Of a stretch of DNA of 47,019 nt, positions 9,019 through 17,874 are shown piece by piece. This DNA comes from Phycisphaerales bacterium. Its GTDB lineage: Bacteria; Planctomycetota; Phycisphaerae; Sedimentisphaerales; Anaerobacaceae. The stretch covers positions 11,408-58,426 of the forward strand of contig PLLM01000026.1 in assembly GCA_003141275.1 (NCBI GenBank). The letters are read 5' to 3'. Numbering within the stretch: position 1 is the first letter of the stretch; each line of letters starts with the position of its first letter. Below the pieces are notes generated by a model that saw nothing but the letters and a program-made list of their open reading frames with translations, did no database searches and was not told the DNA's origin. Position numbers and translations under genes: made by a program.

Positions 9019-10158
9019 TTATTCTTTAACCAGCCAGGCCATTTGATTTGCTTTAAATGTATAATATTTAATAAATATATATTCACGCTTCTTCAAATCT
9101 AAAAGAAGTGTACCCTTAAAAGGATTAATACTATAAGCAAGTAATGTTCTATCTCGGCTGACCTTTGGCGGAGTCAACGGAAATTTATTTGTTTTCCAGA
9201 AAAATCCTGAAGTAATTATTTTTTGATTATTACCATCTGCTGAGCATCGACATAACCGCCTTCTTGCATCAAAGTAATAAATATCACCGTTGTACCCCCA
9301 AGCTGCGTTATAACCTTCTCCTACAACGATCACTTTTCCTGTGGAAATATCTATTTTAATGATTTTACCTGGAAATTGCTGCATTGTTTGAGAAATAAGT
9401 AATCCATGATTTGGATCGAAATCACGAAAATCTTGCCAGAAATATTTCTGTTGAGTTTTCTCAAGAGTCATTGTCTTTAAATCGTATATTAAACTTTTAT
9501 CCCCGTAAGCAAAAATCTTCCCGCCTGCTTCATCTAAAGTAATCCCTTCCATTGCCTGAGCTTCTACTTTAATACGAGTAGAAGGATTTTTATCAAATTC
9601 CCATTTAACCAAAGAGGTTTCTAATTCTCTTGTATGCTCTCCTGTGGGTTTTATACGATTAATTCCAAACCAAAGAGTATTATTAGTAGCTGCACCAAAA
9701 TCAGTGAACTCCCAAATACTATTGTTTGGCTCAAAATTAAAATCTTTAATTGGTATTTCTCTTATGATATTTAAATTCGAATCTATTTCCGCAATCTTGT
9801 CAGGTACACTTACAAAAAAAGACTCATTATCCGGCCGAACACCTATTATTCCAATTTCTCTGAAGAGGCCCCTTTGCCCTTCATCTATTTGATTTAAAAC
9901 TAATTTATAACCACGTTTTTTGCCAATAAACCCGACATATCCTCCCTCTGGTTTTTTTGAATAATGAGAGTTGTAAAAAATATTAAAGTTTAAAAATATT
10001 ACAGGGCGGGAGAAGGAATTAACTTGCTTAAATGAAGGGTCATATATTTTAAAGGGATTCCTAAATGCGACGATCAAAAACCCAAAAAGGGAAATAATAA
10101 CTATAACTATCGAGACCAAACCTAAAATATACAAACGTTTTTTAATTTTTTTCTTCAT
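9019..10158 (-). CDS. AT-rich membrane-anchored protein, propeller-like
   Basis: The start at 10158 (MKKKIKKRLYILG) overlaps the rpiB stop by four bases (ATGA), so translation is probably coupled; an upstream extension to 10221 would read through rpiB. The 379-residue product has a basic N-terminus and one membrane helix (residues 9-32). An extracytoplasmic domain follows with repeated strand-turn patterns such as YDLKTMTLEKTQ and GKIIKIDISTGKVI, suggesting a beta-propeller of the WD40/YVTN kind. I recognise no family. The base composition is clearly more AT-rich than rpiB and the terminase on either side, as expected for recent acquisition. Confidence 0.65.
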   Translation of the reverse strand: MKKKIKKRLYILGLVSIVIVIISLFGFLIVAFRNPFKIYDPSFKQVNSFSRPVIFLNFNIFYNSHYSKKPEGGYVGFIGKKRGYKLVLNQIDEGQRGLFREIGIIGVRPDNESFFVSVPDKIAEIDSNLNIIREIPIKDFNFEPNNSIWEFTDFGAATNNTLWFGINRIKPTGEHTRELETSLVKWEFDKNPSTRIKVEAQAMEGITLDEAGGKIFAYGDKSLIYDLKTMTLEKTQQKYFWQDFRDFDPNHGLLISQTMQQFPGKIIKIDISTGKVIVVGEGYNAAWGYNGDIYYFDARRRLCRCSADGNNQKIITSGFFWKTNKFPLTPPKVSRDRTLLAYSINPFKGTLLLDLKKREYIFIKYYTFKANQMAWLVKE

Positions 10159-10589
10159 TGAGCGTCTATCTTCTGTATGCGGGCAAGATGTCGTCCGCCG
10201 TCGAATGGGGTATTGAGCCAAAGTTCGACAATTTCAAGGGCTTCCTCGATGGCAATCATCCGCTCGCCCATAGCAAGCACATTGGCGTCGTTGTGCGCCC
10301 TGCTCAAGCGGGCGGAACGCAAATCCCAGCACAAGGCACATCGCACGCCTTTGACCCTGTTTGCGACCATCGCCTCGCCGTTGCCTGAGCCGCCAACTAT
10401 GATACCCCGGTCGTATTTGCCCGCGGCGACGGCCTTTGCCACAGGCCTCATAATATCGGGGTAATCGCACGGCTTTTCCGAATCCGTGCCGAAATCGTCA
10501 ACGCTATGCCCCTTCTCGATAAGAAACTTCTTTATGATTTCCTTGTATTTGAAACCTGCCTGGTCTGCGCCAATCGCTATCTTCATCAA
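10155..10589 (-). CDS. rpiB: Ribose-5-phosphate isomerase B
   Basis: Interconverts ribulose 5-phosphate and ribose 5-phosphate in the pentose phosphate pathway. Motifs: IGADQAGFKYKE, GSGNGEAMVANRVKGVRCAL and the HNDANVLAMGER stretch. At the position of the catalytic cysteine in the E. coli enzyme this protein has Gly-Gly-Ser-Gly-Asn-Gly-Glu. That pattern marks the mycobacterial-type subgroup, where a glutamate is thought to act as base. 144 residues, normal. Of the two N-terminal Met codons either could be used. It sits between the two terminase genes on the same strand and is followed, with ATGA overlap, by the AT-rich membrane gene. Confidence 0.92.
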   Translation of the reverse strand: MMKIAIGADQAGFKYKEIIKKFLIEKGHSVDDFGTDSEKPCDYPDIMRPVAKAVAAGKYDRGIIVGGSGNGEAMVANRVKGVRCALCWDLRSARLSRAHNDANVLAMGERMIAIEEALEIVELWLNTPFDGGRHLARIQKIDAQ

Positions 10590-12311: not shown

Positions 12312-13481
12312 TTAGAGAACACAGTTACAACGACCGATAGAGTCCTCCATCTCCAAAGCATTGAAGACGTCGGCCTCTTCCAAACACAGGCCGATTTGCA
12401 GTTTGGGCCGAAGTTTTTTTATTTTGTCAATGAGGTATCGATATACTTCGATTCTTAGTTTTACAGGGAAGCGTATTCTGCCGTCTTTCGATTTGCCCTT
12501 TTCGAGCATTTTTGAAATAGCGTTATTCTTCCCTAATTTTCTCTCGGTAAGCTGCAACGCCCCGAAGTAGCTGCAAATCTGCCCCAGCGTTATGCGCTCA
12601 AGCGGGACCGATACTAAAAATTTTTCCAAAAAGCGTGTGTATATATTTTGCCACCCTTCTACGGGAATAATGGGCATTATAACGGCGCGTAACGGATAGC
12701 CCGCATTTGCACACTTTCGCATCGCAGCAATTCTTTCGTCGGGCAAAGGCACATTCGATTCGAACAAGCTGGAAATTTCACCGGGATTTAAGCTCCACGA
12801 AAGAATGGTGTGACCGTTGTGGTCCAGGTCAAGCAAATTGTCCACGTTGGCGCTTTTTGTCAATAGAGTCAGTTTGGCGTTTTTCTGGTGAGCAAAAAAG
12901 GGAATAATTAAGCGTGAATAGCCGGTAAGCGGGTCAAACGCCAAACCATCCTGGAGTTTACCCAAATAAAAGGCCGCGGGTACGGTCAGTTTTGAAGCAA
13001 CGCAGGCGATTCGGTCGAGTATTTCACCGATATTTACAAATATCTTTACTGTCGGTGAGAATTTTACGCCCGGCGTCCCTGCCAGATAACAATACCGGCA
13101 ATCATAAGGACAAAAGCTGTATGGCGAAAAATGCCAGTAATTGGGGCAGTCATTACCATCCTCGTCGCTGAACCTTAGTGCGCTCTTATGCACGCCTAAT
13201 ACAAGGGTCTTTTTGCCTTTATAGTGCGTTTCCAGGATATCCGATCCGCCAATATCGAGGCGATTATGAGAGGTGCCGAATCTTTCGAACACCCGGGCCT
13301 GAGGATATACCTTACAAATCGCCTGAACAAAATCACGCTGTGGGGCGGTCTGACAACTGCCTTTAGTCAATACAATTGCCTCAGGGGTAAAATAAGGAGC
13401 CCGCTTTGGCTGATAATCCCAACACGAATTCTTTGCTGAAAAAAGGTCAATCATAATTGAATTTTCGCGCTCTAAACTCAT
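12312..13481 (-). CDS. Radical SAM protein, spore photoproduct lyase-like
   Basis: 389 residues with the radical SAM cluster motif C124-PYD-C128-RY-C131 (CPYDCRYCYL), placed mid-protein after a 120-residue N-terminal domain as in SPL. The barrel shows TLLTKSANVDNLLDL and SWSLNPGEI. SPL repairs spore thymine dimers, but homologues occur in non-sporing bacteria with other or unknown DNA-directed roles. The cysteine that completes the SPL reaction follows the cluster by about 44 residues in Bacillus; the nearest here is C160, 29 residues on, so equivalence is doubtful. The start may be ATG 13481 or ATG 13454; a TTGACA lies just upstream. Sits 21 bases after the GNAT gene. Confidence 0.88.
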   Translation of the reverse strand: MSLERENSIMIDLFSAKNSCWDYQPKRAPYFTPEAIVLTKGSCQTAPQRDFVQAICKVYPQARVFERFGTSHNRLDIGGSDILETHYKGKKTLVLGVHKSALRFSDEDGNDCPNYWHFSPYSFCPYDCRYCYLAGTPGVKFSPTVKIFVNIGEILDRIACVASKLTVPAAFYLGKLQDGLAFDPLTGYSRLIIPFFAHQKNAKLTLLTKSANVDNLLDLDHNGHTILSWSLNPGEISSLFESNVPLPDERIAAMRKCANAGYPLRAVIMPIIPVEGWQNIYTRFLEKFLVSVPLERITLGQICSYFGALQLTERKLGKNNAISKMLEKGKSKDGRIRFPVKLRIEVYRYLIDKIKKLRPKLQIGLCLEEADVFNALEMEDSIGRCNCVL

Positions 13482-13502
13482 ATTGTCAAGACAAAGACAT
13501 AC

Positions 13503-14261
13503 TCAGTCTGCATCCCAAATCCTCAATTCAACATTAGGGTTTCGCCACATGTAATACACGGGCCTGTCGGTGAGTTTGCTGAGGATGAATCTTGTGCGTT
13601 CGATACCGGGCTGCATAAGCCGTCTTTGGCCATAACTCTGAAGAAATCGCGTCATTTCCTCTTCGACGAAATCCGCCTTCTGTCCTCTGTTTTCCGTCCT
13701 CAGCTTATCCAGCTTCTGCTGGACAATCGTCGGGTCAATCAAATCCTGCTCATCTACGCCGACAGCGCTGAATGCCTCGATAAGCCGAACACTATTGGCG
13801 GACGGTGGTGCGTCGTATCGGGTCATACCCGCCTTTTCAAAAAACGGGTTCGCCCTGCCCATCACCGCCAGCGCCTCGATGAAAGGGACATTGAGCAAAG
13901 GCATCGTTTCTTTAACCAATCGCACGGCAAGTCCCAGCGAGCGAAACCTCGGCTCGATAATCACCCTGCTGATTGTGCGGATGTTCTTATTGATAAGCTT
14001 AAGACCCGTGCTTCTATCCAATCCCGCGAAAACTCCGCCCGTTGCGATATTTCGCATCTGTGCCCCAGCCGTCGGCATTGAATAAACAATCACGCCCACG
14101 GTTTCGAGTTTCGTCGCTGTTTTGAATTTGCCCTTCAGCGCGAAAATCGCCACGGCGGCCCCGGGATGGCCCTCGCGGTAATGATAATGCGAAAGCGATT
14201 CGTAATCCGCCCTCGTCCCCCGCACAATCTCAAGATTTCTCGTCACCGTACACATTTCCAT
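13503..14261 (-). CDS. GNAT-fold acyltransferase, Mom-like context
   Basis: 252 residues. The N-terminal 150 form a GNAT fold: the hydrophobic strand SRVIIEPRFRSLGLAVRLV contains the acyl-CoA pyrophosphate loop (RFRSLGLA, residues 105-112), and IEALAVMGRANPFFEKAGM is the typical strand plus F-x-x-A-G-M/F ending. The C-terminal 100 residues are helical and charged and unlike ordinary acetyltransferases. Substrate unknown. Phage Mom, which modifies adenine in DNA, also has a GNAT-like fold. With the ABC ATPase, ParB domain and terminase as neighbours, a nucleic-acid substrate is my inference, not something the sequence proves. SD AAGGGA precedes the ATG. Confidence 0.82.
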   Translation of the reverse strand: MEMCTVTRNLEIVRGTRADYESLSHYHYREGHPGAAVAIFALKGKFKTATKLETVGVIVYSMPTAGAQMRNIATGGVFAGLDRSTGLKLINKNIRTISRVIIEPRFRSLGLAVRLVKETMPLLNVPFIEALAVMGRANPFFEKAGMTRYDAPPSANSVRLIEAFSAVGVDEQDLIDPTIVQQKLDKLRTENRGQKADFVEEEMTRFLQSYGQRRLMQPGIERTRFILSKLTDRPVYYMWRNPNVELRIWDAD

Positions 14262-14277
14262 TTTTACTTTTTCCCTT

Positions 14278-14931
14278 TTACTTTTTACTTTTGCCCTTAT
14301 ATGTGACTTCCGCTTCGCCCGCGAAGTTTTTTACGACGAGCACATCCGGCTGCAAATCCGCCAATATGTCCTCGTGGGCCGACGCGAGGAAAAACGTAAC
14401 GCCGTTGTGTTTCGCGAACCTGCGGACGTTGTATGCGATTACGCCCGCTGTTATGCGGTCCAGATTGCTGCAGAACTCGTCTGCGAATATGAACTTTTTG
14501 CCCGATGCCAGCGCACATGCCAGGCGAAAGCGGTATTTCTGTCCCTCGCTCAGATTCGCCGGCGCATTCAGCATGCAAAACACGTCACTCAATCCTGCGT
14601 AGCTCAAAAGCGATAATCCGTCAATCGTCCCCGTCCCGCCGACGCAGTCAATCGCTGGTCTGTCCGCCGGCAAAGCTATCTGTTCGATGATGATTTTTTC
14701 GTCGTCGGGTATCACCGTTTGCATTTCCCGCAGCAGCACGCTTTTGCCCGCGCCGGAAGGCCCGGTTATGTAAACGATGTCCCCATCGTTGACCTCGACT
14801 GTGCAGGCGTGCGTCGTTTGCTGGTCTTTGAGCCGGTCGATACCGACGCCGAACATCCGCATCACTGTCGTTACTCGCTCACTTTTTTGCGGGTTCACAT
14901 CGAATTGTTTAGCCACTGAAAATTTACGCAT
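14278..14931 (-). CDS. Soluble ABC-type ATPase
   Basis: 217 residues with Walker A GPSGAGKS (57-64), ABC signature LSEGQKYR (127-134), Walker B KFIFADE (146-152) with catalytic Glu, and an H-loop-like SAHED. There are no membrane segments, and no permease gene is nearby, so it is unlikely to be a transporter. Stand-alone ABC ATPases act on DNA, RNA or ribosomes. It sits 16 bases upstream of the GNAT gene and overlaps the HTH gene by 8 bases, so it is translated with both. ATPase-GNAT pairs of this type are known to me from phage genomes, but I cannot name a characterised one. Confidence 0.88.
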   Translation of the reverse strand: MRKFSVAKQFDVNPQKSERVTTVMRMFGVGIDRLKDQQTTHACTVEVNDGDIVYITGPSGAGKSVLLREMQTVIPDDEKIIIEQIALPADRPAIDCVGGTGTIDGLSLLSYAGLSDVFCMLNAPANLSEGQKYRFRLACALASGKKFIFADEFCSNLDRITAGVIAYNVRRFAKHNGVTFFLASAHEDILADLQPDVLVVKNFAGEAEVTYKGKSKK

Positions 14932-15403
14932 CGTTCAATCCTCCTTTACCTCGTCCCCGCGAAGCAAAACTGCGGGGGGCCGCCCTGTTCGACACGTATG
15001 TCAGCCGCTGAATTTTTTTCATCGTTTGCCTGACTGTGTAATATGTCGTTTCATGCCTGTTGGCGATTTCGCCCATAGGCAACCCGTCCACAAAATAGTC
15101 CCTCGCCATCTCGATTTGCTCTTGTGTAAATATGTCGCGGTTGCGCAGACAGGTGATGTATTGCCCATCAAGAAGCCGGCGAACCAATTTGTGAATCCGC
15201 CTTGCTACGTTCGCCTCGTTTACGCTCGCTATTTTCGCCATTTGGCTAAACGTGCCGGAGTTGTCCAGGTATATTTGCATCAGCGCACGGTCCCTGCCGG
15301 CCAGCAGACCCACTCTGCTTCGCAGAAGGTCTATCCTGTCCTTGAAGTCCGCTTCCGCTTTGTTCCCCCCGTTAATCTTTTGAAATGTCCTGCTTCTGGC
15401 CAT
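14924..15403 (-). CDS. Sigma-70-region-4-like HTH protein
   Basis: 159 basic residues with two helix-turn-helix units. The first, at about residues 40-75, is DRALMQIYLDNSGTFSQMAKI then NEANVARRIHKLVRRL, as in sigma region 4. The second, at about 92-130, is MARDYFVDGLPMGEIANRHETT then YYTVRQTMKKI. No sigma region 2 is present, so it is a DNA-binding regulator rather than a full sigma factor. First gene of the terminase-ParB-radical SAM cassette, and probably its regulator. SD GGAAGA before the ATG. The C-terminus is coded by a palindromic repeat (14955-14978) that also occurs in its leader at 15476-15511. Confidence 0.82.
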   Translation of the reverse strand: MARSRTFQKINGGNKAEADFKDRIDLLRSRVGLLAGRDRALMQIYLDNSGTFSQMAKIASVNEANVARRIHKLVRRLLDGQYITCLRNRDIFTQEQIEMARDYFVDGLPMGEIANRHETTYYTVRQTMKKIQRLTYVSNRAAPRSFASRGRGKGGLNDA

Positions 15404-16785: not shown

Positions 16786-17874
16786 GTGAGAATTGAAATT
16801 TATCAGGAGGCCAACGCGATACGAACCAACGCAAAAGGCAACAGGTATTCTTTCATCTTATTTACGATTTGTTTTTTACTTTATGCGTTTGTTTTCACCA
16901 TACCGGTATATGCTGCCGGAGAAATTTGGGCTTGGGGAGCGGGACAACCGGGACAGTCGGGTGATCATGACTATGGCCAATGTATTGTGCCAGAGCCCAA
17001 TACGGGTTTTACGGCAATCGCGGCCGGCGGGATTTCCTCGCTTGGCCTTAAACAAGACGGCTCGATTGTGGCCTGGGGAAACAACTGTAATGTGCCGTCG
17101 CCCAATACAGGTTTTAGGGCTATCGCGGCCAGCGAGAGTCACTCGCTTGGTCTTAAACAAGATGGCTCGATTGTGGCATGGGGGGACAACTATTACGGTG
17201 AATGCAACGTGCCATCACCTAATGCTGGTTTTACAGCCATCGCAGCAGGCGGGGGGCACTCGCTTGGCCTGAAGACCGACGGCTCGATTGTGGCTTGGGG
17301 ATATAACGGGAATGGCGAATGCAATGTCCCATCGCCCAATACGGATTTTAAGGCAATCGCATGCATGGGTGCCTCATTTGGCCTGAAACAAGATGGCTCG
17401 ATTGTCGCCTGGGGACCTAACGGGGATGGTGAATGCAATGTCCCGTCACCTAATACGGGTTTTACTGCCATCGCGGCTGGCTGGTATCACTCACTTGGCC
17501 TCAAAGCCGATGGCTCGATTGTGGCCTGGGGAGACAACTACGAGGGGGATTGCAATGTGCCGTCGCCCAATACGGGTTTTGTGGCCATCGCAGCCGGCTT
17601 TCGTCACTCGCTTGGCGTTAAACAAGATGGTTCGGTTGTGGCCTGGGGATTGAACGGGTCCGGTCAATGCAATGTGCCGTCTCCCAATACGGGCTTTGTG
17701 GCTGTCGCGGCAGGCGAACATCACTCGCTTGGCCTGAAAGGTTGTCTGTATAATCTGGCAGGCGATTTGAACAATGACTGCAAAGTGGATATGCTGGATT
17801 TCGCGATCACGGCAAGCAACTGGCTTATCGATTGTTTTGAAGATTCATCTAATCCGGCCTGCGTACACAAATAA
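16786..17874 (+). CDS. Secreted RCC1-like propeller with dockerin-like tail
   Basis: 362 residues. GTG start with AGGAG at 16775-16779. A signal peptide (residues about 20-44, ending VYAAG) follows a basic N-terminus. Then come six complete repeats of about 39 residues with the core HSLGLKxDGSIVAWG and NVPSPNT, plus split half-repeats at both ends (IWAWG at the start, HSLGLKG at the end). That equals a closed seven-bladed RCC1/BLIP-II-type propeller. The tail LAGDLNNDCKVDMLDFAITA resembles one half of a dockerin type I calcium-binding module. RCC1 propellers bind proteins or carbohydrates; this one is probably exported or surface-held. The repeats are nearly identical in DNA, so copy number could vary by slippage. 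Confidence 0.85.
   Translation: MRIEIYQEANAIRTNAKGNRYSFILFTICFLLYAFVFTIPVYAAGEIWAWGAGQPGQSGDHDYGQCIVPEPNTGFTAIAAGGISSLGLKQDGSIVAWGNNCNVPSPNTGFRAIAASESHSLGLKQDGSIVAWGDNYYGECNVPSPNAGFTAIAAGGGHSLGLKTDGSIVAWGYNGNGECNVPSPNTDFKAIACMGASFGLKQDGSIVAWGPNGDGECNVPSPNTGFTAIAAGWYHSLGLKADGSIVAWGDNYEGDCNVPSPNTGFVAIAAGFRHSLGVKQDGSVVAWGLNGSGQCNVPSPNTGFVAVAAGEHHSLGLKGCLYNLAGDLNNDCKVDMLDFAITASNWLIDCFEDSSNPACVHK

Follow-up and report, generated by a model that had tools for sequence, protein, structure and literature searches.

A chromosomal ABC-GNAT-terminase cassette conserved in Phycisphaerae and its predicted role in DNA acylation

The gene cassette described here, encoded on the minus strand of a 47,019-nucleotide stretch of Phycisphaerales DNA (the whole stretch analysed, hereafter the window), is best read as a domesticated module combining DNA acylation with a terminase, and not as a pathway of three enzymes formed by its ABC ATPase, GNAT acyltransferase and spore photoproduct lyase (SPL)-like radical SAM enzyme. 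The unit conserved among relatives is HTH-ABC-GNAT-ParB-TerS-TerL, which probably adds acyl marks to DNA.

Gene organization and conservation

The locus is situated in a source genome assembly of 3.05 Mb in 104 contigs (Table 1). The HTH gene is the first of the cassette and overlaps the start of the ABC gene by 8 bases; the TerS-like ORF overlaps the ParB ORF by 14 bases. ORFs and family matches bear out that the ABC ATPase, GNAT and SPL-like genes are real, adjacent and co-oriented, as an earlier note on this DNA had stated, and likewise the ParB-domain gene placed downstream of the trio. The gaps of 16 and 21 bases given there hold for the longest ORFs; the second widens to 48 bases if the SPL-like protein starts, as is probable from comparison with homologues beginning at an internal ATG (MIDLF), at position 13454. 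The motifs of the ABC ATPase are all present (Walker A GPSGAGKS, signature NLSEGQ, Walker B FADEF, and the H-loop), with G57..K63, S128/G130 and D151 E152 as invariant positions in the family alignment. No permease gene, the partner of an ABC transporter, was recognised among the recurring cassette genes, and PADLOC reported no known defence system, its matches to ABC (mads) and a ParB-type methyltransferase being weak.

Table 1. Genes of the cassette and its passengers (positions in the window)
Product	Position	Strand	Assignment
HTH protein, sigma-70 region-4-like / YlxM-like	14924..15403	-	PF04297 E 4e-5; TIGR02937 E 2e-6, under the TIGR02937 cut-off
Soluble ABC ATPase, 217 aa	14278..14931	-	PF00005 E 2e-11; phrog_293 E 6e-30
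GNAT acyltransferase, 252 aa	13503..14261	-	Weak Pfam match; phrog_886 E 1e-12; GNAT fold in model
SPL-like radical SAM enzyme, 389 aa	12312..13481	-	PF20903 E 1e-36
ParB N-terminal-domain protein, 216 aa	11589..12239	-	PF02195 E 1.5e-9; phage ParB-like families
TerS-like protein (terminase small-subunit-like), 137 aa	11189..11602	-	phrog_2538 E 3e-6
RpiB-like sugar isomerase, host-type, between TerS and TerL	10155..10589	-	Named from sequence
Protein between RpiB-like gene and TerL, probably a passenger	9019..10221	-	No Pfam or NCBIfam match
TerL, terminase large subunit, 494 aa	7469..8953	-	PF17289 E 2e-7; phrog_2 E 3e-21

Of 99 related genomes, 76 encode a relative of the GNAT (45 among the 51 good ones), nearly always as a single copy; according to their records these genomes belong to the Planctomycetota, class Phycisphaerae, and are mostly MAGs of Sedimentisphaerales or Phycisphaerales. 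Most genomes being MAGs, orthology was assigned from sequence similarity together with gene order. Sequence identity drops with kinship, from about 66–84 % within the genus to 43–62 % within the family and 27–51 % in other families, and the distances between cassette proteins correlate from gene to gene (r 0.69–0.89). All neighbours detected are co-oriented with the GNAT gene in 80/80 loci. When only loci with sufficient flanking sequence on the side concerned are counted, (i) the ABC gene accompanies the GNAT gene in 79 of 82, (ii) a co-oriented HTH gene lies upstream in 66 of 78, and (iii) a ParB gene of the same orientation is found near the GNAT gene in 63 of 77. A TerS-like gene is present in 48 of 80 loci. 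Where 9 kb or more of downstream sequence was available, the part retrieved includes TerL in 30 of 51 cases, and TerL was never found on the opposite strand. Between congeners, dN/dS ranges from 0.06 to 0.08 for ABC, from 0.05 to 0.12 for TerL and from 0.18 to 0.26 for GNAT.

In a phylum-wide sample, 10 of 11 genomes belonging to the same class (source genome counted) and 16 from other classes encode the GNAT. Family f8 (L312, L313, L315) has a unit of HTH-ABC-GNAT-TerL. In other Planctomycetota, outside the Phycisphaerae, three loci (L320, L321, L322) encode a fused ABC-GNAT protein followed directly by a different TerL of about 420 aa in non-phage surroundings. Some loci (L208, L212, L316, L323) have ABC-GNAT without TerL nearby. 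The part of the literature covered by our search, from which absence is unproven, yielded no paper on a conserved terminase in Phycisphaerae.

Several side observations concern the surroundings of the locus. In many genomes, co-oriented host-type genes (RpiB-like, sulfatase, FAD-dependent oxidoreductase) recur between TerS and TerL (e.g., L095, L103, L104); the RpiB-like gene of the window is itself co-oriented and recurs at the same position in 9 loci of relatives. GNAT loci also appear under the titles Candidatus Coatesbacteria, Vicinamibacteraceae and Blastopirellula marina (L200, L210, L195), pointing to mislabelled MAGs or to transfer. Elsewhere in the window, an ORF at 16786-17874 carries many WGxNxxGQCNVPSPNTGF-type repeats and appears RCC1-like by eye.

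The SPL-like radical SAM gene

The SPL-like gene is missing from the cassette at all 80 named loci and at about 30 further homologous loci; in two congeners with GNATs 83–84 % identical to that of the window, GNAT is followed directly by ParB with nothing in between. Close SPL relatives (62–77 %) occur in only 6 of the 99 related genomes, all elsewhere on the chromosome, and the other SPL matches in these genomes form a separate group of 26–38 %. The viral contigs scanned contained no SPL relatives. The gene has a GC content of 45.7 % compared to 50–53.5 % for the cassette genes, and its dN/dS is 0.08 with dS near saturation. Among the loci examined, only the source lineage carries this insertion between GNAT and ParB, and comparative genomics rules the gene out as a cassette member; the grouping with ABC-GNAT, from which the earlier note had derived a concerted pathway, is a peculiarity of the source genome.

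The SPL-like protein resembles spore photoproduct lyase (4FHC group, TIGR04070) in sequence, in the CxxxCxxC motif (C124, C128, C131) and in the tyrosines flanking its last cysteine (Y130, Y132), yet differs at the position of the H-donor cysteine (Cys140/141), which is K175 in the window protein and is replaced by Glu in the remaining Phycisphaerae homologues. This site was identified from a difference between two PDB chains (S or A), presumably the mutated Cys140 of spore photoproduct lyase. The equivalog cut-off of TIGR04070 was missed by the protein (141.8 vs 400 bits). A displaced catalytic cysteine, C160, had also been proposed; alignment of this region has G or R in all five homologues of 61–76 % identity, so that C160 is no conserved feature and drops out as a candidate. 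Five other cysteines (C112, C257, C366, C385, C387) are invariant in 24/24 aligned Phycisphaerae SPL-like proteins, a 31–36 % group included, with C385 and C387 lying within a C-terminal CNC motif.

In three genomes of a set of four (L112, L114, L116 SPL locus, L117), SPL relatives adjoin an Eco57I-type DNA methyltransferase with a TaqI-like specificity domain (TaqI_C); in the fourth, the neighbours of the SPL relative are DUF488 and another radical SAM protein. From this neighbourhood the SPL branch may well be part of separate DNA modification systems; by descent it does not belong to the ABC-GNAT cassette.

The ABC-GNAT pair and its substrate

As judged from homology, the ABC-GNAT pair belongs to the DNA-base acylation system predicted by Iyer and Aravind. 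PMC7824862, citing Iyer 2013, names phage pT24 and restates the prediction that a GNAT coupled to an ABC ATPase places an uncharacterised acyl modification on a DNA base. The family studied here matches pT24, and in both systems homologous ABC and GNAT proteins are encoded adjacently or as a fusion. In phage annotation, the pair is described as an "ABC-type ATPase fused to a predicted acyltransferase domain" (MK0520-type). The present cassette differs from the Iyer-type system in being chromosomal and vertically inherited, in its association with HTH, ParB, TerS and an intact TerL, and in having no detectable capsid or portal. A measurement of modified DNA for the ABC-GNAT family was not encountered in the literature searched.

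The same genes are found in mobile elements. Phage SSU5 possesses ParB-ABC-GNAT, and in nickie and the Rhizobium phage RHph_X66 these genes lie close before TerL, with the portal also near; in IMG/VR contigs a fused ABC-GNAT ORF adjoins TerL. SSU5/nickie-type elements are complete phages that possess portal and capsid genes, and their GNAT and TerL are only about 21–31 % identical to those of the cassette. Furthermore, 706 plasmid records encode the GNAT; most are enterobacterial and non-mobilizable, and those listed have sizes of about 72–119 kb, which we take to be typical of SSU5-type phage-plasmids.

The AlphaFold (AF2) model of the GNAT obtained from 65 sequences (pLDDT 93.5) has a complete GNAT fold; a model built without alignment (pLDDT 47) was discarded. 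Residues H27 Y28, R70, R99, E129 and Y236 are invariant in the 65-sequence alignment, and the CoA loop RxxGLA is located at 107-112. The C-terminal 100 residues, formerly regarded as pointing to a new reaction, are conserved in the family and consist of a helical insertion within the GNAT fold and a last strand (235-240, with an invariant Tyr) that aligns with the GNAT core, which rules out a separate new domain. The model matches many GNATs (Z 11.7–12.7). The highest Z values belong to N-terminal peptide acetyltransferases and their like (Ard1/NAA60/RimI type; top 12.7), and Mu Mom (8bv8; Z 12.2, rmsd 4.0), less than one Z unit below, gives the longest alignment among the matches listed (165 residues). 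With Z values thus tied, the fold alone cannot tell a DNA from a protein substrate.

Profile comparison of GNAT with Mom (hhalign) was weak (25.7 % and 5.3 %), the former alignment bringing the HY motif into register, as well as the VGV strand. Beyond this register and the GNAT-type fold, Mom shares with the cassette a ParB neighbour in some actinophages; a Mom-like gene follows a ParB-like gene directly or nearly directly in Dropshot and Zartrosa (L301, L302). In contrast to Mom, the cassette GNAT keeps the RxxGLA loop and has an ABC partner, and the Mom-invariant AD, YxAxN and H183 motifs were not seen in it. Neither the window GNAT nor the families listed for 28 family members matched Pfam Mom (PF25680), with Mu Mom itself scoring 253 bits as control. 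The earlier proposal of a DNA base modification stands in part: it is supported by the existing ABC-GNAT prediction, by an overall fold resemblance to Mom that other GNATs equal, and by the ParB/terminase gene order, and it needs no SPL; the role assigned to the SPL-like enzyme falls away.

Terminase, virion genes and possible function

TerL was matched in 19/19 genomes searched and is near full-length in 17. The exceptions, both single-contig MAG assemblies, have a C-terminal fragment only (G013) or two separate pieces (G038). Walker A, Walker B, the coupling motif and the acidic residues of the nuclease are invariant in ten aligned sequences. A C-x4-C-x2-C-x5-C cluster (residues 243-257 of the window TerL) between the ATPase and nuclease domains is likewise invariant (loci L214-L221 included); the cluster has a longer spacing in the nearest free-phage TerLs, is missing from the nickie-type TerL, and is possibly a zinc site.

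Portal profile A6, derived from the genes following the nearest free-phage TerLs, had matches in 0/15 genomes and recovered the diverged portals of nickie and RHph_X66 as controls (E 6e-17 and 1e-13); it replaced phrog_145, which was silent with its control. The phrog_247 capsid was likewise found in 0/15 genomes, its control being positive. HK97-type portal and capsid families were represented in 0/11 (PF04860) and, above cut-off, 1/11 genomes (PF05065), and lambda-type portals (PF05136) in 3/15 only. These negatives cover the nearest portal and capsid types, not every possible capsid. That no portal was detected in Phycisphaerae suggests either a gene transfer agent (GTA) of a kind not yet recognised or a novel function for the motor.

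Base acylation by the ABC-GNAT pair together with terminase coupling, in a phage-derived module that is now a domesticated, stable part of Phycisphaerae chromosomes, with no portal or capsid of the nearest types detected, is, taken jointly, a reading with about an even chance of being correct. The GNAT could instead acylate a protein (TerL, TerS, ParB or host RNA polymerase), the ABC ATPase regulating or targeting it and no base being modified. The best Z matches are of this kind, the ordinary acetyl-CoA loop fits equally well, and phiKMV Rac is a phage GNAT acting on host proteins (PMC7824862). The long alignment with Mom, the ABC partner and ParB, which suggest a DNA target, and the published genomic-context prediction favour a base without being decisive, and protein acylation appears somewhat unlikely. 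It is very improbable that the ABC, GNAT and SPL-like enzymes constitute one concerted DNA modification pathway: adjacency and co-orientation in the window, the methyltransferase neighbours of SPL relatives in three genomes and the low dN/dS of the gene agree with it, and the absence of SPL from the cassette in all relatives, the two congeners with GNATs 83–84 % identical included, its lower GC content and the unconserved C160 speak against it.

Compatible with either acylation reading, the cassette might also be the packaging part of a GTA whose structural genes are located elsewhere in the genome. PMC11841831 and PMC9632790 describe GTAs as domesticated prophages packaging host DNA. Vertical inheritance, a TerL with intact ATPase and nuclease, the presence of TerS and purifying selection fit such a role, and a domesticated, vertically inherited phage TerL is shared with RcGTA and CcGTA; the cassette differs from both in that no portal or capsid was detected and ABC-GNAT stands in their stead, and the results for A6, phrog_247, PF04860, PF05065 and PF05136 make a GTA rather doubtful. 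Phage-type TerS, TerL and ParB without structural genes alongside would also suit an ordinary prophage remnant in decay. Conservation across the class, strong purifying selection and intact catalytic motifs refute decay for the order as a whole, and this explanation is almost certainly wrong for the locus.

The preferred reading, a domesticated module acylating DNA, builds on what was observed: the composition and order of the genes, their vertical conservation with motifs intact, the purifying selection on them and the coupling to a terminase. ABC and GNAT would form a complex, as suggested by their fusion in other lineages. The ABC dimer with ATP would load on or open DNA, possibly chosen or positioned by the ParB-domain and HTH proteins, and the GNAT would transfer an acyl group from acyl-CoA onto the amino group of a base. 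TerS/TerL may act on the same DNA, in phages by packaging it, so that DNA would there be marked or prepared at packaging; in Phycisphaerae they would perhaps function as a translocase/nuclease with a new task. The earlier note had suggested that the terminase nuclease might recognise or spare the modification. Tentatively, one may speculate that the domesticated terminase has given up filling virions and, with the acyl-marking pair, is a machine for DNA processing or self/non-self distinction, the mark directing the moving or cutting by TerL.

Terminases are the packaging motors of viruses. A terminase kept intact across a class together with a predicted DNA acyltransferase, and with no detectable portal or capsid, would represent an unrecognised kind of GTA or a use of the motor other than packaging. 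For the uncharacterised ABC-GNAT system, its association with a terminase is a strong functional hint. Common SSU5-type phage-plasmids encode this pair as well.
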